Source of the DNA: Lachnospiraceae bacterium oral taxon 500
Lineage (GTDB): Bacteria > Bacillota > Clostridia > Lachnospirales > Vallitaleaceae
Length of the DNA stretch: 64,000 nucleotides
Assembly: GCA_002999035.1 (NCBI GenBank)
Contig: CP027241.1
Coordinates: 2,111,001-2,175,000 of the forward strand
Direction of reading: 5' to 3'
Of this stretch, positions 1,608-12,801 are shown piece by piece (within the stretch, counting starts at the first letter, position 1; the number at the start of each line of letters is the position of its first letter). The position numbers and the translations under genes were made by a program. The notes under the pieces are model-generated. The model was not told the origin of the DNA. It was given only the letters and a program-made list of their open reading frames with translations, and ran no database searches.

Positions 1608-1970
1608 ATGAATGAGGAAAGGATAGAAAAGAATCGAAGGGATGAAATACAGCTCGTCTCCCGGATGATTGAACTTTATTGTCGTAAAAAACACAAAAAC
1701 TTATATAATACCACGGTATGCGATGATTGTAAAAAATTGCTGGAGTATGCTTGTTCAAGAAGTGAACGCTGTCCGTTTATGGAAAATAAGACGTTTTGCA
1801 GCAACTGTAAGGTTCACTGCTATTCCCCGACAATGCGAAAGAAGATAAAGGAGGTGATGCGTTATAGCGCTTCAAGAATGCTCCTGTATCATCCGGTTAT
1901 GTGCATCCGGCATGCAGTGGTAAGTTTAAAAGGAAAATTTAAAAGGGAAAGTAAGATGCGGAAACGATAG
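1608..1970 (+). CDS. YgbA-family cysteine-rich protein (nitrous oxide-stimulated promoter family)
   Basis: A 120-residue basic protein matching the YgbA_NO family. Conserved features are a MIELYCRKKH segment, paired cysteines CDDCKKLLEYA and RCPF, then CSNCKVHCYSPTMRKK and MRYSASRM. Cysteines near residues 38, 41, 48, 54, 63, 66 and 70 could bind metal or sense nitrosative stress; the biochemical role is not known to me. In enterobacteria the family is named for a promoter responsive to nitric/nitrous oxide. The start is well supported by GGAGG at 1596-1600. The upstream 139-bp repeat array ends 40 bases before this start. Confidence 0.8.
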   Translation: MNEERIEKNRRDEIQLVSRMIELYCRKKHKNLYNTTVCDDCKKLLEYACSRSERCPFMENKTFCSNCKVHCYSPTMRKKIKEVMRYSASRMLLYHPVMCIRHAVVSLKGKFKRESKMRKR

Positions 1971-2047
1971 GCAAATTGATACGCCAATTCCTTTCGGAAA
2001 AGCAAATGATACCAGAGAATGATAAAAGGGTACGAGGAGTAAATGAT

Positions 2048-2635
2048 ATGAAGATAAGCAGCGAGTTAAAAAAGATAGAAAAGTATATATGTGAAAATTT
2101 TGAAGATTGGGATTTGGATGATCCGGTGGAGGAAGAATATCTTGATGATTATCAGGAAATAGCGGGAGCCTCTGAGGAAGATATGGCATCATTTGAGGAG
2201 AAATTTGGTATCATTTTGCCTGATGAGGTAAAAGAGCTTTACAGGTATAAAAATGGAAGTAAATATCTAAGTATATTGCCATGTGTTATTGATGAAAGAG
2301 AGATGGCATTTTGCTTAATGAGTTTAACGGAGATGGAAAACAAAAAGAATTATTTTCAAAACAGGGATGCCCTCTTAACAGAGTTTACTGAGTATTTTAC
2401 AAGTGAAGACCTTGATAAAATGCGAAACAGCAAGATAAAGCCTTATCTCTTTAATAAAAAATGGATACCTTTTGCCCGGTATTGCGATAGCTGTTATCTG
2501 ATACTTGACTTTGATCCGGATAAAGAGGGAAAAGAAGGTCAAATTATTTGCTATATCCATGATCCGGATGAAGTTATCTATGTTGCAGAGGGGATTACGG
2601 AATTGATTTCTAAAATTATGGAAGAGATTAATTGA
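2048..2635 (+). CDS. SMI1/KNR4 (SUKH)-like protein
   Basis: A 195-residue acidic soluble protein. The core ASEEDMASFEEKFGIILPDE followed by VKELYRYKNGSK, and later WIPFARYCDSCYLILDFDPD, fit the SMI1/KNR4 (SUKH) fold. That fold is common in immunity proteins against contact-dependent or polymorphic toxins and in housekeeping regulators. I place the start at ATG 2048 because GAGGAG lies at 2034-2039. An upstream in-frame TTG at 1976 has no ribosome binding site. No toxin partner is visible next door, so an immunity role is only a possibility. Confidence 0.7.
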   Translation: MKISSELKKIEKYICENFEDWDLDDPVEEEYLDDYQEIAGASEEDMASFEEKFGIILPDEVKELYRYKNGSKYLSILPCVIDEREMAFCLMSLTEMENKKNYFQNRDALLTEFTEYFTSEDLDKMRNSKIKPYLFNKKWIPFARYCDSCYLILDFDPDKEGKEGQIICYIHDPDEVIYVAEGITELISKIMEEIN

Positions 2636-2765
2636 TATGACAAATTTTTAAGAGGAATCATTATGAATGGGCAAATGTTTCCAGTGGGAGAGTGACGGAA
2701 AGCTTAGATGAGTTGTTTTGTTTAAGACAGGAGCAGCGAAAACGATTCAAAAGGAGGTGGGACAA

Positions 2766-3980
2766 ATGTTACAACTGAAAGCATTATCAGGGGTGATACT
2801 GTCGCTATTATTCACTCTGTTTTTAACCAATGCTGTATTGGCAGACCTTCAGCACATCATCCAAAATATGCCCCCCTTTATCGATGTGGATAGGGCGGCT
2901 TGGTATTATGCGGATGTACAGATTGCTTATCAGAGCAAATTAATCAACGGCAAGACAGATACTTTATTTGCGCCCGAAGATGATATGACAGTTGTGGAAG
3001 CCGTTAAACTTGCGGCGTGTATGCACCAGCTAAAAAAAGAAGGTGCGGTCAGTTTATCGGCGGGAGCCGATATTTGGTATCAGCCCTATGTGGACTACGC
3101 TAAGGATAAGGGCATCATAGCTTCCGATCTTAATTGGGGTCAAAAAATCACTAGGGCAGGCTATATGCAAATCTTTGCCCGGCTTATTACGGATGACGAG
3201 ACGAAGCTGAATGATGTACCGGATGACTTCATACCCGATGTCAAGATGACCCACCCGGATGCAGATGCTATTTACAAGCTCTATAGGGCGGGCATTGCCC
3301 AAGGGGTAGATGCCGACAGAAACTGTCAGCCATCCGCCTATATTAAGAGAAGTGAGATTGCGGCCATCCTCACCAGAATGGTAAAGGAGAGTTCAAGGAT
3401 AGTATTTATGCCGGGGCAGAACTTAATGATCAGAGTGCAGCCCCAAGACGCTGAGGATAGGTTGGGCAATAGGGTAAGTCTCGAAGTTATAGTTAGTGGC
3501 GGCAAGGAACCTCTAAGCTACCAATGGGAATATTTTGATGAAGCGGATAGAGTATTTAAGAAAAGCGTATCCGAAGGCAATACCAGCAATCAACTGAAAG
3601 TTCTGGTAGAAGATAGAGTCTGCGAATACCGCTGCATAATTCGAGATGCGGCCGGCAAACAGATTATAAGCAATACGGTGAAAGTAGAAAGATACATTTC
3701 TGAGAAACTAACGATAACAAAGCAGCCGGAGCCCCAAAAGGGAAATATCGGGAAAATTGTGAAGCTAAAAGTCGAAGTGAGCGGAGCGAAGGCCCCCGTC
3801 ACTTATCAATGGGAGTATTCTGAAAATTCGGATGGACCTTTTTATAAAAGTGAAGCGATAGGCAATCATACGAAAGAGCTGACCGTAGCCATAGAGAATA
3901 CAGCCTACTATTATCGCTGCTATATCAAAGACAAAGAAGAAAAATCCATCCATAGCGCCGCCGTCCTTGTGGCAAAGTAG
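2766..3980 (+). CDS. Secreted protein with S-layer-homology-like and two Ig-like repeats
   Basis: 404 residues. The N-terminus is a signal peptide with a hydrophobic core and an AVLA-D cleavage site around residue 26. Residues 35-205 contain three SLH-like segments (PFIDVDRAAWYYADVQIAY, IWYQPYVDYAKDKGII, AIYKLYRAGIAQG), which suggest binding to a cell-wall polymer. Residues about 222-308 and 315-404 are two homologous Ig-like repeats sharing YQWEY and a YxCxI core with paired cysteines. The start at 2766 is chosen from AGGAGG at 2752-2757; the longer TTG reading at 2718 lacks a site. A cell-surface adhesion role is inferred. Confidence 0.75.
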   Translation: MLQLKALSGVILSLLFTLFLTNAVLADLQHIIQNMPPFIDVDRAAWYYADVQIAYQSKLINGKTDTLFAPEDDMTVVEAVKLAACMHQLKKEGAVSLSAGADIWYQPYVDYAKDKGIIASDLNWGQKITRAGYMQIFARLITDDETKLNDVPDDFIPDVKMTHPDADAIYKLYRAGIAQGVDADRNCQPSAYIKRSEIAAILTRMVKESSRIVFMPGQNLMIRVQPQDAEDRLGNRVSLEVIVSGGKEPLSYQWEYFDEADRVFKKSVSEGNTSNQLKVLVEDRVCEYRCIIRDAAGKQIISNTVKVERYISEKLTITKQPEPQKGNIGKIVKLKVEVSGAKAPVTYQWEYSENSDGPFYKSEAIGNHTKELTVAIENTAYYYRCYIKDKEEKSIHSAAVLVAK

Positions 3981-4232
3981 GACGAAGGGGATGAAGATGA
4001 AAGTGTAAATAAGCGTTTGTTGATGAATGATTGCAGCTTAGGCTTACTAATTTTCCTTCTTTGTTTTTTTATATTCATTTTAGATACCTCTTGTGTTTTT
4101 AGATTTTGCCAACTGTCAGGTCAGTAATAATCTAAAGTTACTTGAGGTATTTTCTTTGTTAATTTCCGACCATATTTTATAAACAGAGAAGGGACATTTT
4201 CTACCGGGAATAAAAAAATATTTTTTGTCCCA

Positions 4233-4266
4233 AAATGTATACATTTGTCCTAATGTGTGATATAAT
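4233..4266 (+). promoter_or_regulatory. Candidate promoter/operator of the ATPase-protease pair
   Basis: A perfect 14-bp palindrome AAATGTATACATTT lies at 4233-4246, and TATAAT follows at 4261-4266. The palindrome covers the place where a -35 box would be, and no consensus -35 exists there. TTGTCC with a following AATGT occurs twice, about 20 bases apart (4225 and 4245), roughly two helical turns. This layout suggests a regulator site, either repressor or activator. The remainder of the 390-base gap from 3981 is A+T-rich with nothing else recognised. Confidence 0.5.
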
Positions 4267-4373
4267 GATTATCAAAAATAGAAATGGAATAAGCCAAACA
4301 GATATAAGATTATAATTGCCGAAAAACTTTCGATACATACCCAAAAATAAAGTAGTAAACAGGAGGAGTCGCC

Positions 4374-5438
4374 ATGAAGAAACAAAATGTGCTCAATTTA
4401 ATAAAGTTTCATGTAGAGAGAAATGAAACAGCCTTTCGCAATGAAGCCATTCAGATCGCAAGGTATTTTGATAGCATTGGGGATAGTGAATTAGCAGAGT
4501 ACATTATGGGATTAATTTCAGAAGCTAATTTATATATTCCGCAAAGTAGTGATTTTGAAAGTGAATTTTTAAAGCAAATGGATATCAGAGAAATGAATCC
4601 TTTAAATCTTCCTGTAGAGATTACAGATGATATTAAAGGGATTATCAATGCAGTCAACCATAATGTAGGTATCAATAAGTTCCTATTTGAAGGGCTTCCG
4701 GGGAGTGGAAAAACGGAAGCGGCTAAGCACATAGCAAGATTGCTGGACAGGTCGCTTTTTTATGTTGATTTTGAGAATTTGATTGATAGTAAGCTGGGAC
4801 AAACCAATAAGAATATTACAAATGTTTTTCAGGAAATCAATATGCTTCCTTATTCCAATCGGGTGGTAATATTGTTTGATGAGATTGATGTGATTGCTCT
4901 GGATAGGATTAATTCTAATGATGTTCGGGAAATGGGGAGAGTGACATCTACTATTTTAAGAGAACTGGACAGATTGACGGACTTAAATAAAGAAATTGTA
5001 ATTATTGCAACAACCAATCTATTTTCAAATTTTGATAAGGCATTAATTAGGAGGTTTGATGCGGTTATTAGCTTTAATCGTTACAGTACGGATGATTTGA
5101 TTACCGTTGCAGAACATTATTTGTCTTCTTTTATAAAGAAATTTAAGGGCATTTCCAAAGATAGCAGATTATTTAAAAAAATTCTCAAATCAGCGGATAA
5201 ATTGCCTTATCCGGGAGAGTTGAAAAATATTATTAAAACTTCCTTGGCATTTAGTGATACTCATTTGGAGCATGATTATTTAAGACGGCTTTATAACAGT
5301 CTGGTTGGAAATCTGGAACAAACAAGTATCAGTGAGCTATATGAGAAAGGTTTTACAGTTAGGGAAATAGAAAAACTAAAAGGAGAATCTAAAAGCACGA
5401 TTTCCAGAAAACTGAACAAGGAGGATGTGAATGAATAA
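4374..5438 (+). CDS. AAA+ ATPase paired with subtilisin-like protease
   Basis: 354 residues with an intact AAA+ core: Walker A GLPGSGKT at 107-114, Walker B VVILFDEID with D169 and E170, sensor-1 asparagine in IATTN (N215), and an arginine pair R226/R227 in the arginine-finger position. The helical N-terminal 95 residues are not recognised. The C-terminal tail (GFTVREIEKLKGESKSTISR) looks like a helix-turn-helix. Its stop overlaps the protease start by 8 bases, so the two are translationally coupled. Such AAA+/S8 pairs recur in bacterial accessory loci. A role in protease activation or substrate delivery, possibly in phage defence, is inferred. Confidence 0.8.
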   Translation: MKKQNVLNLIKFHVERNETAFRNEAIQIARYFDSIGDSELAEYIMGLISEANLYIPQSSDFESEFLKQMDIREMNPLNLPVEITDDIKGIINAVNHNVGINKFLFEGLPGSGKTEAAKHIARLLDRSLFYVDFENLIDSKLGQTNKNITNVFQEINMLPYSNRVVILFDEIDVIALDRINSNDVREMGRVTSTILRELDRLTDLNKEIVIIATTNLFSNFDKALIRRFDAVISFNRYSTDDLITVAEHYLSSFIKKFKGISKDSRLFKKILKSADKLPYPGELKNIIKTSLAFSDTHLEHDYLRRLYNSLVGNLEQTSISELYEKGFTVREIEKLKGESKSTISRKLNKEDVNE

Positions 5439-7665
5439 TGTATTGGAGCTTAAGGGAAAACGGTTCATTCAAGCTAACAAAGATGGAAGTGGAGGTGGGC
5501 CGGCAATCAATGGCAAGGTAATCGTATCAGAAGAAAAGATGATTCAGTTAGCAAATAAACTCCATCAAATCAAAATGTTTTGGAAAACACAGAAAAGACC
5601 ATTTCCGGGACTTTTAATTAGCGTTCATTATAATAAAATTGCGGCCAAGAGCAATCGAATCAGTGGACTGTTTAAGGGAAAAGATTCCAATTTTTTAGTG
5701 GTTGGTGTCAAATTTAATAAAGAAAAAACGAGGCATATTATTACATATTACTTAGAAGAAAAAGACATAGATAAAAGTATTCAACTGTTATTAGAAGCAA
5801 GAGAAGTGATGAGCAAGCATTTCTCAAAAGGGATACAGAAAGCAATCTTTGATAATAAAAAACAGATGGCTGCCGTTCCCTATAATAATTTTTCAATCAA
5901 TAAATCGAATTTTAAGCAGGTGGTAGCAGATGTTTCGTATATTGATGATTTTGCAATAGAAGAACCGGAACTTGTAAAAAAACAAAGCATTATCACTTTA
6001 TATAATGTGGGGATAGATACGAAAAGTCTTTTAAGGGAAATAGGAATTGATATTTTATCCAGTAGAATTTTGGATAACCAAACTATTTTCTTAGATGAAA
6101 ATCAATTGGAAATTTTATTTGAGAAAATGCCATATTTGGTTTCAATGGCAACGGTTGATTTATCGGAATTATCTCCCGAAGATTTCATCAAAGAAAAGCA
6201 ACAAGATTTACGCTATATTCCGAGTCCTACGATAGAGCCGACCATTGGGGTAATTGATACTCTGTTTGATAAGACAGTCTATTTTCGTGAATGGGTGGAT
6301 GCTTATGATATGATTGATGAAAATATTCCAACAAATTCAAAGGATTATCGACATGGAACGGCAGTATCTTCCTTGATTGTTGATGGGCCAAAGTTGAATC
6401 CGTGGTTAGAGGATGGATGTGGCAGGTTTCGGGTTCGTCATTTTGGAGTAGCTACGGGAGGACAATTTTCATCTTTTTCGATTATAAAAAAAATAAAAGA
6501 GATTATCATGAAAAATAGAGATATCAAGGTTTGGAACATTTCTATGGGCAGTAATCAGGAGATCAATGATAATTTCATATCAGCCGAAGCGGCTGTATTG
6601 GATCAAATCCAATATGAAAATGATGTGATTTTTGTAATTGCAGGCACTAATAAACCAAATGAGAGTATAGAAAAAATTGGTTCACCGGCAGATTCCATCA
6701 ATGGCTTGGTAGTAAATGCAGTGACTAAGCAAGGACTATCCACCAAGTATACAAGAAAAGGTCTTGCTTTATCTTTTTTTGCAAAGCCGGATGTCAGCTA
6801 TTATGGCGGCAGTGAGGAGCAATATATAAGAGTATGTGAACCATTAGGCGCGGCGTATGTAGCAGGAACTTCTTTTGCTGCCCCTTGGATTGCCCGTAAG
6901 CTATCCTATCTTATAGATATACTGGGATTTAGTAAGGAAGTGGCAAAGGCGTTGATTATTGATGCAGCTAGAGGATGGAAAGAAAATCCGACCCCAGAGG
7001 AAGTGGCTGTTTATGGGCATGGGATAGTGCCGACTAGAATAGCAGACATTGTACAAAGCCAAGAGGATGAAATAAAGTTTATTGTGTCCGATATTAGTGA
7101 AAAATGGAATACTTATAATTATTATTTTCCGGTTCCATTAAAGGAGGAGAAATATCCTTATATTGCCAGAGCAACTATGTGCTATTTTCCAATGTGTAAT
7201 CGTTCGCAAGGAGTTGATTATACGAATACAGAATTAAATTTACATTTTGGCAGAATTAATAACAAAGGAAAGTTAAAAGATATTGTCGGGGATAAACAAA
7301 ACCAAGAAAACATAGCAGGGGAGGAGATAAGCTATATTCTGGAAGAGGAAGCAAGGGAGCGATTTCGGAAATGGGATAATGTCAAGTATGTAGCCGAAGT
7401 GCCAAAAGAAAGTATGCGCCCCAAAAAATCATACACTAATAAAAACTGGGGCATGGAAATTAAAACAAGTAATCGTCTAAATCCCGAAGACGGTAAAGGG
7501 ATTCGCTTTGGTGTTATTGTCACGTTAAAAGAAATAGAGGGTGTCAACCGGATTGATGAGTTCATAAGAAACTGTACTCTAAATGGCTGGCTGGTAAACC
7601 AAATTGACATTCAAAGCAAGGTTGATATTCATAGGAAAGTGAATGAGGAGATAGAATTTAGGTAG
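5431..7665 (+). CDS. Subtilisin-family (S8) serine protease, cytoplasmic
   Basis: 744 residues, no signal peptide. The catalytic triad is complete: D276 in TIGVIDTLFD, H308 in YRHGTAV, S481 in AGTSFAAP, with oxyanion asparagine N407 in VIAGTNKPN. The protease domain spans about 265-540. An N-terminal region of some 260 residues and a C-terminal region of 200 residues are unassigned. The lack of a signal peptide and the coupling to an AAA+ ATPase point to an intracellular regulated protease rather than a secreted digestive enzyme. The N-terminal region could keep it inactive until triggered, which is inference. Confidence 0.85.
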   Translation: MNNVLELKGKRFIQANKDGSGGGPAINGKVIVSEEKMIQLANKLHQIKMFWKTQKRPFPGLLISVHYNKIAAKSNRISGLFKGKDSNFLVVGVKFNKEKTRHIITYYLEEKDIDKSIQLLLEAREVMSKHFSKGIQKAIFDNKKQMAAVPYNNFSINKSNFKQVVADVSYIDDFAIEEPELVKKQSIITLYNVGIDTKSLLREIGIDILSSRILDNQTIFLDENQLEILFEKMPYLVSMATVDLSELSPEDFIKEKQQDLRYIPSPTIEPTIGVIDTLFDKTVYFREWVDAYDMIDENIPTNSKDYRHGTAVSSLIVDGPKLNPWLEDGCGRFRVRHFGVATGGQFSSFSIIKKIKEIIMKNRDIKVWNISMGSNQEINDNFISAEAAVLDQIQYENDVIFVIAGTNKPNESIEKIGSPADSINGLVVNAVTKQGLSTKYTRKGLALSFFAKPDVSYYGGSEEQYIRVCEPLGAAYVAGTSFAAPWIARKLSYLIDILGFSKEVAKALIIDAARGWKENPTPEEVAVYGHGIVPTRIADIVQSQEDEIKFIVSDISEKWNTYNYYFPVPLKEEKYPYIARATMCYFPMCNRSQGVDYTNTELNLHFGRINNKGKLKDIVGDKQNQENIAGEEISYILEEEARERFRKWDNVKYVAEVPKESMRPKKSYTNKNWGMEIKTSNRLNPEDGKGIRFGVIVTLKEIEGVNRIDEFIRNCTLNGWLVNQIDIQSKVDIHRKVNEEIEFR

Positions 7666-7679
7666 GGGGAATATTATCT

Positions 7680-9410
7680 ATGGGAGGAGAAAAGTTGAAA
7701 TCTAAGATATTTTTGAAAAAAGTTAAACTTGAAAAATATAAATGCTTTGAAAATATGGAGATATCGTTTAAGGATTTAACGATTATTGTAGGGGAAAATA
7801 ATGCAGGGAAGTCATGTTTAGTTGAAGCATTGAGACTGATTGCTACTGCAGCACGGCAGTCAAAATCTAGAGAATTTAAACAAGCACCGGGGTGTCTTGA
7901 ATTACCATTAGCAATTAGAGGTTTTGTTATAAAAGTGGAGAAATTAAAAATCGATTTAGAAAAAGCGATATATTTTTACGGTGATGAAGCAGCAAAAATT
8001 ACAGCTGTTTTTTGCGATGATTGGAAAATAGAAATACATGTAACAAAAGAAGTAGCGTTTGCAGTTTTCTATGATTCCGATGGAATGAATATTAAGAAAA
8101 AGATCAAGCCAGATGTGTCGCATTTTAATAATATTGCTATTCTTCCACAGATTGGATTAATTAGAGATAATGAAAGACTCTTGAGTACTAAAACTGTTGA
8201 AGAAGATAAAGACACTTATCTAACTTCTTTACATTTTAGAAATGAAATTTTCCTGCACAAAGAAGAATTTTTTGAGGAGTTTAAAAAATTATCAGAAACT
8301 ACATGGTTTGGATTGGAGATAAATGAAGTTGAATATAATTATGGTACAAGTGAATATTTAGAGTTTTTTTTAAAAGACAATTCTTTTCCAGCAGAAATTG
8401 CAGACATGGGAAGTGGTATAAAGATGTGGTTACAGATAATGTGGTTTTTAGCTAGAACTAAAAATAATGATATTATTATATTAGATGAACCGGATGTGTA
8501 TATGCATGCAGATTTACAAAGAAAGCTATTAGACATTGTAAAGATGAGATATCCACAAGTCATTATTGCAACGCACTCCTTAGAAATAATAGGTAGAGTA
8601 GAACCAGAAAATATTGTATCGGTAAATAAAAAAGATAAACAGTTACGATATGCTACAGACTCAAGTGCAGTACAAAATATAGTTGATAATATTGGAGGTA
8701 TACATAATTTGTCACTAATTAGGCTTGGATTAGCAAGAAAATGCCTCTTTGTTGAGGGAAAAGATTTGCCATATTTAAATCGATTTAATGAGATTCTTTA
8801 TGGGAAAAAGATTGATCTACCAATTTTAGAATATGGTGGCTTTTCGAAACTATCAAATACATTTGGGGCGTCTAATTTATTGTTTTCGGAGAGCAAAGGG
8901 AATATTAAATGCTATGCACTTGCGGATAGAGATTATAGAACTGATGATATAGTTGATCAGCAAATAAAAGAAGCTACAAAACAACATTTAGAACTTCATA
9001 TTTGGGAGAAAAAAGAAATTGAAAACTATTTGATAGATACAAAAGTATTATATAGAATAGTTGAAAGGTATCAGGAAGAATCTTATGAAGATTTTTGTGG
9101 CCGGATTGAGGAGCTTGTTGAGGGGATGAAGGATTTAGTCATAGATGGATATGCGGATATGCTGCAGCAGAGAAACAGAGGTATGGAACTTTCTACCTGT
9201 AATATTAAGGCAAGAGAAATTATAAAGAATTGTTGGGGGACTCTGGAAAGTAAAATTTCTCTAGTAAATGGAAAAGATTTATTAGCTAAGATTAGAGAAT
9301 ATTGCCAAAGTAAGTATAAAGTTACTCTAACGGATAACTTAATACAAAAAAGTTTTACTATGGAGGATGTACCGATGGAAATAAAAACTGTGCTAGCAAA
9401 GGTGCAGTAG
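7680..9410 (+). CDS. OLD-family ATPase/TOPRIM nuclease
   Basis: 576 residues. The ABC-type ATPase half has Walker A GENNAGKS (38-45), a signature-like MGSGIKMW (243-250), Walker B IIILDEPD (D269, E270) and H-loop H299. The C-terminal half is a TOPRIM domain with E359 in LFVEGKD, D416 and D418 in ALADRDYR, then KKEIENYLID typical of OLD proteins. OLD nucleases act in phage exclusion, and GajA of Gabija is one. No UvrD-like GajB partner is present. It lies 14 bases after the protease gene. ATG 7680 and TTG 7695 (preceded by GGAGGAG) both have plausible ribosome binding sites. Confidence 0.85.
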   Translation: MGGEKLKSKIFLKKVKLEKYKCFENMEISFKDLTIIVGENNAGKSCLVEALRLIATAARQSKSREFKQAPGCLELPLAIRGFVIKVEKLKIDLEKAIYFYGDEAAKITAVFCDDWKIEIHVTKEVAFAVFYDSDGMNIKKKIKPDVSHFNNIAILPQIGLIRDNERLLSTKTVEEDKDTYLTSLHFRNEIFLHKEEFFEEFKKLSETTWFGLEINEVEYNYGTSEYLEFFLKDNSFPAEIADMGSGIKMWLQIMWFLARTKNNDIIILDEPDVYMHADLQRKLLDIVKMRYPQVIIATHSLEIIGRVEPENIVSVNKKDKQLRYATDSSAVQNIVDNIGGIHNLSLIRLGLARKCLFVEGKDLPYLNRFNEILYGKKIDLPILEYGGFSKLSNTFGASNLLFSESKGNIKCYALADRDYRTDDIVDQQIKEATKQHLELHIWEKKEIENYLIDTKVLYRIVERYQEESYEDFCGRIEELVEGMKDLVIDGYADMLQQRNRGMELSTCNIKAREIIKNCWGTLESKISLVNGKDLLAKIREYCQSKYKVTLTDNLIQKSFTMEDVPMEIKTVLAKVQ

Positions 9411-9514
9411 ATAATAAGATGTGTGTAAGAAGAAAATATAGAAAATAAATAAATAGATAGATAATATATAGAACAAAAAATAGATTTAAAACAAATGATT
9501 TTAGAGGAGCAAAA

Positions 9515-10384
9515 ATGAAAACATTATACGATGTACCATCATATAGAAATATGATGAAAGAATTATTTCAAGCAATTAAGGAGTTAGGCGGTTCAGGAAC
9601 CATTCGTGAAATTGATGAAAAAACGATTGAAATATTAAAATTACCAATAGAAATACAGGAAATAATGCATGGAACTACTAGTGAAACAGAGGTGGAATAT
9701 CGGCTCGCATGGACGAGAACATATTTGAAAAAAGTAGGAATTTTAGAAAATTCTGCGCGGGGAATATGGGTGCTAACGACTAAGGGAAGAGAAATTCAAG
9801 AGATTAATCCAGATGAAATTGTAAAAAAGGTTCAAGAAATGATACTTTTAAAAGAATCAGGTAAAAAAGAAATCAATACAGAAGATGAAAATTTGGAGAA
9901 TGACGGTATTGATATCCCAGAAGAAATTCAATCTTGGAGAGAAAAGTTAAAAAATGTTCTATGCAACCTAACTCCGGCTGCATTTGAAAGGCTTACGCAG
10001 AGATTATTAAGAGAGTCAGGTTTTATGCAGGTGAAAGTTACCGGTAAAACAGGAGATGGCGGGATTGACGGTATGGGTATTGTAAAATTAAACGGTATCA
10101 TCAGCTTTCACATGTTATTCCAATGTAAACGTTATGCAGGAACGGTTGGAGCGGGTGAAATACGAGATTTTAGAGGAGCCATGCAAGGGCGAGCAGATAA
10201 GGGACTTTTTATTACAACAGGAAAATTTACAAATGCAGCCATTGAAGAAGCAAATCGAGCGGGAGCTGCACCGATAGATTTAATTGATGGGGATGAATTA
10301 GTAGAAAAATTAAAAGATTTGCGATTAGGTGTTATTCCTATCAATGATTATAGTATTGATGAAGAATGGTTTCTGTCAATATAA
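9515..10384 (+). CDS. mrr: Mrr-type restriction endonuclease
   Basis: 289 residues. Residues 1-95 form an N-terminal winged-helix DNA-binding domain (Mrr_N type). Residues 150-270 form the Mrr catalytic domain of the PD-(D/E)XK fold, with GDGGIDG (D185) and FQCKRY (Q203, C204, K205) as active-site motifs and conserved GxFT and AxxAGA segments after them. Mrr enzymes cut DNA carrying methylated bases (type IV restriction). A 104-base A+T-rich gap separates it from the OLD gene. A good GAGGAGC site lies 9 bases before ATG. The length is close to that of full Mrr proteins, so it appears intact. Confidence 0.88.
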   Translation: MKTLYDVPSYRNMMKELFQAIKELGGSGTIREIDEKTIEILKLPIEIQEIMHGTTSETEVEYRLAWTRTYLKKVGILENSARGIWVLTTKGREIQEINPDEIVKKVQEMILLKESGKKEINTEDENLENDGIDIPEEIQSWREKLKNVLCNLTPAAFERLTQRLLRESGFMQVKVTGKTGDGGIDGMGIVKLNGIISFHMLFQCKRYAGTVGAGEIRDFRGAMQGRADKGLFITTGKFTNAAIEEANRAGAAPIDLIDGDELVEKLKDLRLGVIPINDYSIDEEWFLSI

Positions 10385-10411
10385 TTTAGCGAATTTAATT
10401 ATCTCCCAACC

Positions 10412-10815
10412 GTAAATACGGGAAGAAAATTTTATCTTAGCTGGTCGCACTATTTGAAACTGATGCGAATTGACAACGTTGAAGAACGTCACTTTTATGA
10501 AATTGAGTGTATTACAATCGTATATTGCGTTGTTTTGTATTGTTTGATTTGAAAATTGGTGAACTGAAGCATCAGGATATCGGTCAAATGCAGATGTATG
10601 TAAATTTCTATGACCGCAAAGTTAAATTAGAAGAAGAAAATAAAACGATAGGCATTATTTTATGTAAGGATAGGAATAAGGCTATTGTTGAAATGACTTT
10701 ACCTGAGGACAATGCTCAAATTTTTGCGAGTAAATATGAGACTGTTCTGCCTCAAAAGGATGATTTAAAAAAACTATTGGAAGAACATAGAGCGGATGAG
10801 GAAGAAGATTTGTAA
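10412..10815 (+). pseudogene. Broken DUF1016 (YhcG-type PD-(D/E)XK nuclease) gene
   Basis: Two pieces of one family lie in different frames. Bases 10412-10507 read FYLSWSHYLKLMRIDNVEER then HFYEIE, the end of a DUF1016 N-terminal domain. From 10507 the next frame reads VYYNRILRCFVLFDLKIG and runs to the stop at 10815, the DUF1016 C-terminal nuclease domain including the DLKIG active-site strand. The roughly 150 residues between them are missing, so an internal deletion also changed frame. The family accompanies restriction systems. The fragment of 102 codons at 10507 could still be translated but has no start site of its own. Confidence 0.8.
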
Positions 10816-10979
10816 TTACCTACGATGCCATGGACGAGAAGTACGATACAAAAGCCTTTGCTCCTACTATGAAAGGGGCGACTTGGTAAAAATGCAATAA
10901 TTGGAGATATTCGTGCATAAAATGTAGCGGGAAAATGATAGATAGTGTTAAACCAGAATTGATAGGGGGGAGGAAACTC

Positions 10980-11702
10980 ATGAGTCTGATTCAGGAATTA
11001 CATCAAATAGGAGCAGAAAATGTAAAAGAGGCATTTGTTGACTTTTTAGAACAATATTTAAATCCGGCATTTGGTTCAATGTCAAAGCGGGATATTGATA
11101 TTTTATTGTTTATGAAATTGCAAGATTTAGGGTTAATTCAGCATAATCCGGAACTATATGAAATTGTGTCAAGCCTTAAGGTCACCAGAGCAAAAGCAAG
11201 GAATCTGCTATATGAAGCCAAAATGCGGACAACTACCGTGGAGGAGCTGGATAATGAATTAAAAAATATTCTTAAGTCCCCTGTTTTCCTGAAGGAGAAT
11301 GATAAGATTTCTTTAGAAATTGGGAATCCGCTGTTAATTGATCATTTAAGAGACAAACTAAAAAAATTGAAACATATAACAGATGGCTCATTTTCCCCGG
11401 AGTTAGTAAAACTGACAATAGGAGCGTATGCAGCTTTATTTGAAAGTATGTTAAATGAAAAGAGTAAAGATACCATCCGAAAAGCATTGATCCAGTGCGG
11501 TGCAATAGAAGAACCTACATTAAAAGGTATTTTAACCAATGTGTTTAAGAGTTTGGCAGGCAAGTTTTTAGGAAAAATGGGAGATGAAATAGTGGCAGGC
11601 ACATCTGAATATTTTTCAGCTATTATGGAGGAAGATATACGATTGATCCAACAACTTTTTCCCCGCTTGCTGCAAAGTGACGATAGTGAGCCAAGCAACT
11701 GA
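10980..11702 (+). CDS. Unknown 240-aa protein with possible HTH
   Basis: No family is recognised. The start at ATG 10980 follows GGGGGGAGG at 10965-10973; an ATG at 10935 has no such site. The sequence is helical and soluble. Residues near 38-80 (SKRDIDILLFMKLQDLGLI, later KVTRAKARNLLYEAKMR) look like a helix-turn-helix or small DNA-binding bundle. No nuclease or membrane motif is visible. It sits at the downstream end of the defence-like block and on the same strand, so it may be a member of that block or its regulator. Confidence 0.55.
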   Translation: MSLIQELHQIGAENVKEAFVDFLEQYLNPAFGSMSKRDIDILLFMKLQDLGLIQHNPELYEIVSSLKVTRAKARNLLYEAKMRTTTVEELDNELKNILKSPVFLKENDKISLEIGNPLLIDHLRDKLKKLKHITDGSFSPELVKLTIGAYAALFESMLNEKSKDTIRKALIQCGAIEEPTLKGILTNVFKSLAGKFLGKMGDEIVAGTSEYFSAIMEEDIRLIQQLFPRLLQSDDSEPSN

Positions 11703-11913
11703 TTTGTGCATTTTCAAATGAGGATTATAAAATATTTTAGTATCAGCCGGCAATAAGAAAAGTTGTGTTGAAATAAATATGTTTTGCGAAGAAGCAATAA
11801 TTTAAAATAGGAAAGGGGAAATCTTAAGGGAATGATTGGACAAATTTCTGCGACAAGATACTTTTGCGGCACATACTTCAAAAGAGGGTTTCAAGGAATG
11901 CAGAAAATCTGAT

Positions 11914-12801
11914 CTATCCTTTAATGGAACCAACCATAACCCCTTTAACAAAGTATTTTTGAATAAATGGATAAACTGTTAAAATTGGCAGGGTGGTAAT
12001 GACAATGGTGGCTGCCCGAATGGATTGAGAAGGCGGAATGACATCAAGGGAATTGTAGGCTTCTGCGCCCAAATCACCAATATTAGAGGCGGCAGTAATA
12101 ATATTGCGTAAAATATTTTGCATGGGCAATAAGGACGTTTTATTGATATAAAGCATGGCATCAAACCATGCATTCCAGTGAGCAACGGCATAGAAAAGCC
12201 CAATTGTGGCAATGGAGGCTTTGGACAGTGGCAGAACTACTTTAGTTAAAATTTGCATATCATTAGCCCCATCAATAATAGCGGCTTCTTCTAGGCTTTT
12301 GGGGATAGCATAAAAGAAATTACGCATAATCAACAGATTCCAGGTATTGATCAAACCAGGAAAAATCATGGACCAGCGGGAATCGAGCAAATTTAAAGAT
12401 TTAACCAGAATAAAAGTCGGAATCAGGCCACCGGAGAAAAACATAGTAAAAAAGACAAAGGCAGTAAACAGATTGCGGCCTTTTAAGTTTTTTCGGGATA
12501 GACCATAAGCCAGCGTAATGGTAAATAATAAGTTTAAAAAAGTACCAATTAATACCCGAAAAAGGGTATTGCCGTAAGCACGTAAAATATTTTTGCCGCT
12601 GGCAAGCAACATTTTATACGCAGAAAAATCAAACTTTTGCGGAATGATAATAAAAGTGCCGCGCTGAGCAATCTCGGCTTCACTGACAAAGGAAGTCATT
12701 AAAACCGTAAACACCGGGATCAGGACAAGAACCATAAAGATACACATTAAAGTAATGTCAAAGATCTGAAAAATTTTTTCGCCGGAAAATTGTTTTTTCA
12801 T
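11914..12801 (-). CDS. CUT1 sugar ABC permease, LplC type
   Basis: 295 residues with six predicted membrane segments and the inner-membrane permease EAA loop EEAAIIDGANDMQ, followed by VLPLSK, which docks the ATPase. It resembles LplC/YtcP permeases for oligosaccharides. It overlaps the stop/start of the preceding LplB-type gene, so the two are one transcript. No binding protein and no ATPase lie with them. Such Lpl systems commonly borrow a shared MsmX-type ATPase. Its substrate cannot be read from the sequence. The partner permease is truncated, so function of the pair is doubtful. Confidence 0.8.
   Translation of the reverse strand: MKKQFSGEKIFQIFDITLMCIFMVLVLIPVFTVLMTSFVSEAEIAQRGTFIIIPQKFDFSAYKMLLASGKNILRAYGNTLFRVLIGTFLNLLFTITLAYGLSRKNLKGRNLFTAFVFFTMFFSGGLIPTFILVKSLNLLDSRWSMIFPGLINTWNLLIMRNFFYAIPKSLEEAAIIDGANDMQILTKVVLPLSKASIATIGLFYAVAHWNAWFDAMLYINKTSLLPMQNILRNIITAASNIGDLGAEAYNSLDVIPPSQSIRAATIVITTLPILTVYPFIQKYFVKGVMVGSIKG

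Follow-up and report, generated by a model that had tools for sequence, protein, structure and literature searches.

Which genes of a defence-type island act together, and what keeps the protease encoded there in check? The question is raised by a stretch of DNA from Lachnospiraceae bacterium oral taxon 500 (contig CP027241.1, positions 2,111,001 to 2,175,000; these 64,000 nucleotides are the window to which all coordinates refer), in which positions 4374-11702 carry, on one strand, the AAA+ ATPase IetA, the subtilase IetS, an OLD-like protein, an Mrr endonuclease, a YhcG/DUF1016 remnant and an orphan open reading frame (ORF). An earlier note on this DNA had suggested that protease and OLD nuclease may be parts of a single system, with infection setting off proteolysis and then nuclease action. 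Comparison with relatives points elsewhere: we consider it likely that 4211-7665 is a self-contained IetAS unit in which IetA, by means of a C-terminal helix-turn-helix (HTH), binds twin boxes in the promoter and controls its own operon. IetAS itself is already known; what is new is the combination of matched promoter boxes and a putative DNA-binding tail on the ATPase. The features concerned are the following.

4227-4231, + strand: putative operator box 1, GTCCC, with a T-tract before it; the box pair is present in 57/57 upstream regions
4238-4243, + strand: -35-like TATACA between the boxes, weak (4/6 match to TTGACA)
4247-4251, + strand: putative operator box 2, reading GTCCT in this genus (three genomes) and GTCCC in 52/57 regions
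4261-4266, + strand: -10 element TATAAT, 14 bases past the start of box 2
4374-5438, + strand: IetA, AAA+ ATPase with a C-terminal HTH (PDLC02196 over residues 4-351)
5304-5429, + strand: C-terminal HTH of IetA, residues 311-352 (HTH_38 match, model helices, motif)
5431-7665, + strand: IetS, S8 subtilase with D276, H308 and S481 motifs

The coupled ATPase-protease pair recognised in the earlier note holds up well. Both genes are intact, with reading frames overlapping by eight bases (stop included), and the motifs expected of each protein are kept: Walker A (GLPGSGKT, 107), Walker B (VVILFDEID, 164) and an arginine finger (RRFD, 226) in IetA, and GVIDT (273), HGT (308) and GTSFAAP (479), with the residues D276, H308 and S481, in IetS, which also matches Peptidase_S8 at 4e-29. 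Profile matches place 4374-7665, as a divergent member, in the known IetAS (or IteAS) defence/toxin-antitoxin family. As in that family, the AAA+ gene overlaps or abuts the subtilase gene, and the PADLOC profiles cover most of both proteins (IetA, 1.2e-37, residues 4-351; IetS, 2.6e-62, residues 253-732 and 34-683); unlike the typical members, the pair lies far below the NCBIfam equivalog cut-offs for IteA and IteS (NF042959, NF042956; 97.3 versus 510 and 162.1 versus 900 bits) and has a GTCCY twin-box promoter. The core of IetA, residues 59-313, shows an AAA fold of the unfoldase type, aligning with NVL, proteasome ATPases and FtsH at Z values of about 20; most of these structural alignments cover just the core, so they have no bearing on the fold of the HTH. 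IetAS relatives were found on plasmids, phages and islands, with IetS relatives at 27-52% identity in phage records. Genome G041 carries two distant IetAS pairs that differ from each other (L086, L087), and the record of Pseudomonas phage PfAC08 (L194) swaps the names, calling the ATPase IetS and the peptidase IetA, opposite to the families.

The first description of IetAS, on pTiC58, reportedly linked IetA to plasmid incompatibility, and the family is also said to have featured in a report of phage defence. In relatives, subtilases of the IetS type are described as toxic and as neutralised by ATPases of the IetA type (passages of PMC5006074 and PMC8562856). By their published descriptions, sgiAT of Salmonella genomic island 1 and ietAS of pTiC58 resemble the present pair as operons of an ATPase antitoxin and a subtilase toxin (passages of PMC5006074), and A132/T133 of Mycoplasma mycoides do so in protein size (353 and 757 amino acids), gene order and neutralisation of the toxin (passages of PMC8562856). 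A Mycoplasma hyorhinis relative is 40% identical to IetS, but the tail of its IetA has no HTH recognisable by eye and its promoter has no boxes. IetAS is listed as a defence system in several genome surveys, and the mechanism is called unknown in a 2025 paper (passages of PMC11878078).

Whether IetAS works with the OLD-like protein was judged from the genomic record of both. The two genes lie on the same strand, 14-29 bases apart and probably in one transcript, and both families are tied to defence. Nevertheless, when 84,980 species genomes were scanned for relatives of IetS, 62 loci came up whose ORFs, searched with phmmer at E <= 1e-5, included IetA in 57, Mrr in one, and OLD, YhcG or the orphan ORF product (P255) in none, with the limits that the single OLD query can miss remote OLD-type proteins and that the downstream DNA is shorter than 2 kb in 9 of the 61 IetS-bearing loci, so that the absence of OLD is not complete. 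The five loci without IetA (L058, L067, L068, L071 and L072) are partial IetS matches only. In 146 genomes, the window's own included, IetS was present in eight (E <= 1e-10) and OLD in three (E <= 1e-15), both occurring together only in the window's genome. The closest OLD relative found (48% identity) sits in a genome without an IetS match, next to methylase, endonuclease and Vsr-like genes, a restriction-modification-like setting (identities assigned by reading the sequences).

The edges of conservation agree. In two congeners the DNA shared with the window comprises 4211-7665 and 4225-7688, at 85% and 83% identity, and then ends, at the IetS stop or at most 23 bases away, with helicase-like genes behind IetAS instead of OLD; in one of these genomes (L062) Mrr is again present, after a 905-amino-acid helicase-like protein. 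Since the conserved block covers only the promoter and IetAS, the latter is, on this comparison, a unit retaining its promoter while its neighbours change, and OLD, Mrr, the YhcG remnant and the orphan ORF are, by the same comparison, island neighbours independent of it. A single machine of protease and nuclease appears highly improbable in the face of these counts, and the present analysis corrects that idea. The earlier note had itself named, as part of what would refute it, the failure of the four genes to co-occur in other genomes; their co-occurrence was not seen, as far as these collections go. A conserved block of IetAS, OLD, Mrr and YhcG was likewise rejected on the counts in the 62 loci and 146 genomes and on the neighbourhoods.

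No other fixed partner of IetAS emerged, as the 428 proteins of at least 130 amino acids within 6 kb fall into 330 neighbour families. By eye, the commonest in the 61 IetS loci are an ABC-transporter-like family (13) and a second family (9), followed by a recombinase-like and a 277-amino-acid family (8 each). Among the 25 commonest families for 42 immediate downstream proteins, CBASS effectors, GmrSD, a GajB-like helicase and AbiO are matched by one to three proteins each. In three loci (L045, L049, L050) a 235-amino-acid protein, a cyclase-like protein of about 490 amino acids (by eye) and a third gene follow closely behind IetS; three of the 42 downstream proteins, probably from these loci, match 2TM effector and SMODS-associated NUDIX profiles, consistent with a CBASS operon. 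Viral relatives of OLD, P255 or this IetA were not confirmed in IMG/VR with search patterns that reach close relatives only.

What the unit does retain is a distinctive promoter. In an upstream set of 56 loci and the window (a locus with truncated IetA, L021, was left out, and L176, at a contig end, was left out of a later set), a pair of GTCCY boxes is present in 57/57 regions, at a spacing of 21 base pairs (bp) in 40 and 20 bp in 17. These regions form 31 sequence clusters, the largest of 25 members, and the pair is kept in all 31. The distance from box 2 to the -10 element is 14 in 50/57, with an exact TATAAT there in only 40; in the window, the pair brackets the -35 element over 4227-4251. 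It precedes ietA in Clostridia, Pasteurellaceae, Gilliamella, Snodgrassella, Campylobacter and a metagenome-assembled genome (MAG) of Lentisphaerae. In the 62 loci, 56 copies of the pair lie at ietA versus six elsewhere in 2.03 million strand-bases, and a strict form of the pattern has four sites in the 146 genomes, all at ietA (by position), versus none for the reversed control. Without the T-tract the pattern is only half specific, since this looser form has eight sites in 398 genomes, four of which lie at ietA (three of these in first-set genomes), and its reversed control also gives four. In the same 398-genome phylum sample, IetS occurs in 19 genomes: the pair is present in all nine whose IetS is at least 48% identical, five of them new, and among the ten at 26-32% it is present in 0/9 with readable upstream DNA. 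Three rows of this sample (L156, L159, L160) repeat first-set genomes, and two further pairs of rows share identical upstream DNA.

Several details of these promoters deserve mention in their own right. The ietA leader, from the -10 element to the start codon (4267-4373 in the window), measures 107-113 bases in the three genomes of the genus versus about 10-40 in most other loci. In one genome (G324, locus L158) IetS is interrupted near its start, with one stop in the match, and the operator pair is present, so that this looks like a broken copy. Two prophage contigs (L115, L124) share a promoter of similar layout, with CGTCCC boxes around TTGACT, ahead of a gene for about 130 amino acids; no IetA was found in the contig DNA examined.

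A candidate reader of the boxes is encoded immediately downstream. The last 45 residues of IetA, beyond the AAA core, match HTH_38 barely over the curated cut-off (27.1 versus 27 bits), and a model built on 57 sequences places helices at 319-324, 329-336 and 340-352 with a mean predicted local distance difference test (pLDDT) score of 85-94. The tail motif is kept in 58/58 close IetAs, and in distant ones, of 21-26% identity, an HTH-like tail aligns by eye at the same place (judged on 33 of 72 rows). When nine distant or class-A-like IetAs (classes are defined below) were scanned, HTH matches exceeded the cut-off in three (L192, L175, L194) and were weaker in three others. These observations suggest that IetA is the probable reader of the GTCCY boxes, binding its own promoter. 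The arrangement recalls DnaA, in which a C-terminal HTH comes after the AAA+ module and the promoter is autoregulated; the two are alike in layout only, the core of IetA being nearest to NVL, proteasome ATPases and FtsH.

Could the boxes instead be read by a host regulator, with the HTH of IetA serving another purpose? In the 146 genomes the strict pattern occurs nowhere but at ietA, and the same boxes stand before ietA from Clostridia to Campylobacter and the Lentisphaerae MAG; because of this recurrence across phyla, the reader should travel with the operon, and IetS, its other gene, has no match to a DNA-binding domain. As the rows compared are kin, box types could, however, track lineages rather than HTH contacts. 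On balance we regard a host regulator as unlikely. A different thought is that the HTH mainly senses invading DNA carrying such boxes, the promoter copies being a calibration site. It would suit the alignable tails of distant IetAs and the reported link of IetA to plasmid incompatibility in pTiC58 (a title cited in PMC8562856), but the 45 viral contigs with a related pattern show no ietA in the DNA examined, several of them being recurrent unrelated elements, and sensing of this kind as the main role seems to us quite improbable.

Box and tail were also compared across the family. We sorted 92 IetA rows into HTH classes according to a short recognition-helix motif. Class A (KSxVxR type) has the GTCCY pair in 67/68 rows versus 0/24 of the others, and in 62/63 once the five class-A rows with repeated upstream DNA are set aside. 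Class B (SLRKV type) has three AAC boxes with a 21-bp period in 7/7 rows, six of them exact, versus 1/85, and its 21-bp repeat signal lies above all 200 shuffles (d=21, six loci); class C (SxSTVxHH type) has TTCGAYAAA in 3/3 versus 0/89. Across these rows, box type follows HTH type. The corresponding Fisher values (3e-21 for A, 9e-10 for B and 8e-6 for C) are descriptive and not proof, because the rows share ancestry and because the boxes of classes B and C were drawn from the very rows, few in number, in which they were later counted. Searches for fresh class B or C members gave only the divergent L099 in phages, none in viral scans and, for class C, none in plasmids; in sets of 3, 105, 9 and 10 genomes they returned only genomes already known. 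In the remaining 15 upstream regions the d=20 value of the repeat test was reached by 1/200 shuffles, which is unremarkable given that 29 distances were tried.

Several observations weigh against control by IetA through matched boxes. The IetA of an Enterococcus durans plasmid has the class-A motif without the spaced pair, its upstream DNA holding one GTCCC and one inverted copy; one class-A row carries AAC triplets; a class-B-like phage copy with a different tail (L099) has no 21-bp repeats; and in 14/92 IetAs (the class 'other') all three boxes are missing. For classes B and C, the counts come from the few rows that defined their boxes. Three of the nine IetAs scanned (L182, L184, L162) gave no HTH match at E 0.1 among the families listed, and the strict pattern occurs in only four of the seven genomes with a close IetS among the 146, the other three carrying variants. 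In the distant relative sgiAT, a reporter study describes the promoter as strong and its activity as seemingly raised by the island in trans, unlike simple repression (passages of PMC9927553). Finally, the anti-phage activity of this IetAS subfamily is only predicted, from relatives.

Despite these points, control of the operon by IetA remains the reading we favour, and its steps can be sketched. Oligomers of IetA would use the HTH to bind the direct repeats, which are helically phased; for direct repeats two helical turns apart, identical subunits lined up head to tail would be a better geometric fit than a classical dimer. Bound IetA would then control the operon, more likely by repression than by activation, so that the toxic protease stays scarce and in balance with its ATPase. 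An infection or a plasmid entering the cell might disturb IetA so that this control is lost, and freed IetS could then cleave host or phage proteins, leading to growth arrest or loss of the intruder. Published work on sgiAT bears on the sign of control: its promoter is reported to be free of LexA control and its behaviour to agree with self-regulation, which is only hinted at there (passages of PMC9927553), and positive activation was thought necessary in an earlier paper (passages of PMC5006074). In the open-access literature we found no description of an operator or DNA-binding tail for IetA, which is weak evidence of absence since all preprints and most subscription papers lay outside this scope. 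An operator matched to the tail of the ATPase offers a concrete hypothesis for how a toxic protease is kept under control and is in keeping with a promoter that, as observed, moves together with the pair.

A bolder version, which we hold to be rather unlikely, makes IetA a DNA-bound antitoxin ATPase, whose rows on the phased promoter boxes would hold IetS inactive until incoming DNA or titration frees the protease. Were it true, plasmid incompatibility, toxin-antitoxin behaviour and phage defence would share one switch, and a private pair of HTH and box in each IetAS lineage would avoid cross-regulation between related systems.

The remaining genes, neighbours of the IetAS unit, are these.

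7680-9410, + strand: OLD-like AAA_15 and TOPRIM protein, likely start TTG 7695, a neighbour outside the IetAS unit
9515-10384, + strand: Mrr-type restriction endonuclease (Mrr_N and Mrr_cat), a neighbour gene
10436-10815, + strand: YhcG/DUF1016 remnant, in which the N-domain end (10436-10507) is in another frame than YhcG_C (10507-10815)
10935-11702, + strand: orphan ORF (P255), 255 amino acids, likely start ATG 10980, no family over cut-off

Family matches support the reading as a defence-type island, as do the defence-like genes that follow IetS elsewhere. The OLD-like protein has an ABC-type ATPase (Walker A GENNAGKS, 38; Walker B IIILDEP, 265; AAA_15, 7.7e-24) and the residues FVEG...D and DRDY (416), which we take to be the TOPRIM Glu and DxD motifs and which have counterparts in the 48% homologue. 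Its profile matches are led by AriAB (6e-25, a fused PARIS profile), followed by GajA (1.2e-20), PtuA (7.6e-19) and Old (4.9e-18). It resembles these proteins in joining ATPase and TOPRIM but has no GajB, PtuB or separate AriB among the scanned window neighbours; an AriAB-type fusion would need none. The 14-base gap to IetS given in the earlier note applies if ATG 7680 is the start; however, GGAGGAG lies inside the first codons after it, ahead of TTG 7695, and the alignment with the 48% homologue does not begin before residue 12, so that the true gap is probably 29 bases.

The Mrr and DUF1016 calls also stand. Mrr keeps its PD-(D/E)xK residues (DGGID, 181; QCK, 203). The YhcG_C match is limited to profile positions 64-155, with no intact N-domain and PDDEXK in one frame, and the short piece at 10436-10507 is presumably the N-domain end, a by-eye reading; a second short fragment, of another gene, lies at 10818-10887 in frame 2 (by eye). 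To link all six genes or remnants to restriction is too strong, since the sixth, the orphan ORF, has no family match over a cut-off and no homologue besides itself in the 146 or 398 genomes or in plasmid or phage records; its single-sequence model was unusable (pLDDT 38).

The lower G+C content (guanine plus cytosine) claimed relative to the sugar genes that follow is apparent against 14-24 kb (30-38% at 4-12 kb versus 42-52%), but not against the sugar-transport genes at 12-14 kb (36-39%). As these and 2-3 kb (37%) are similarly low, the island has no clean compositional edge. No tRNA was found in the window and no structured RNA in 4000-12000. Upstream, at 1608-3980, lie genes for a YgbA_NO protein (nitrous-oxide-stimulated promoter family), a SUKH-1 protein and a protein with SLH and Ig domains, the SUKH-1 protein matching a candidate defence profile.

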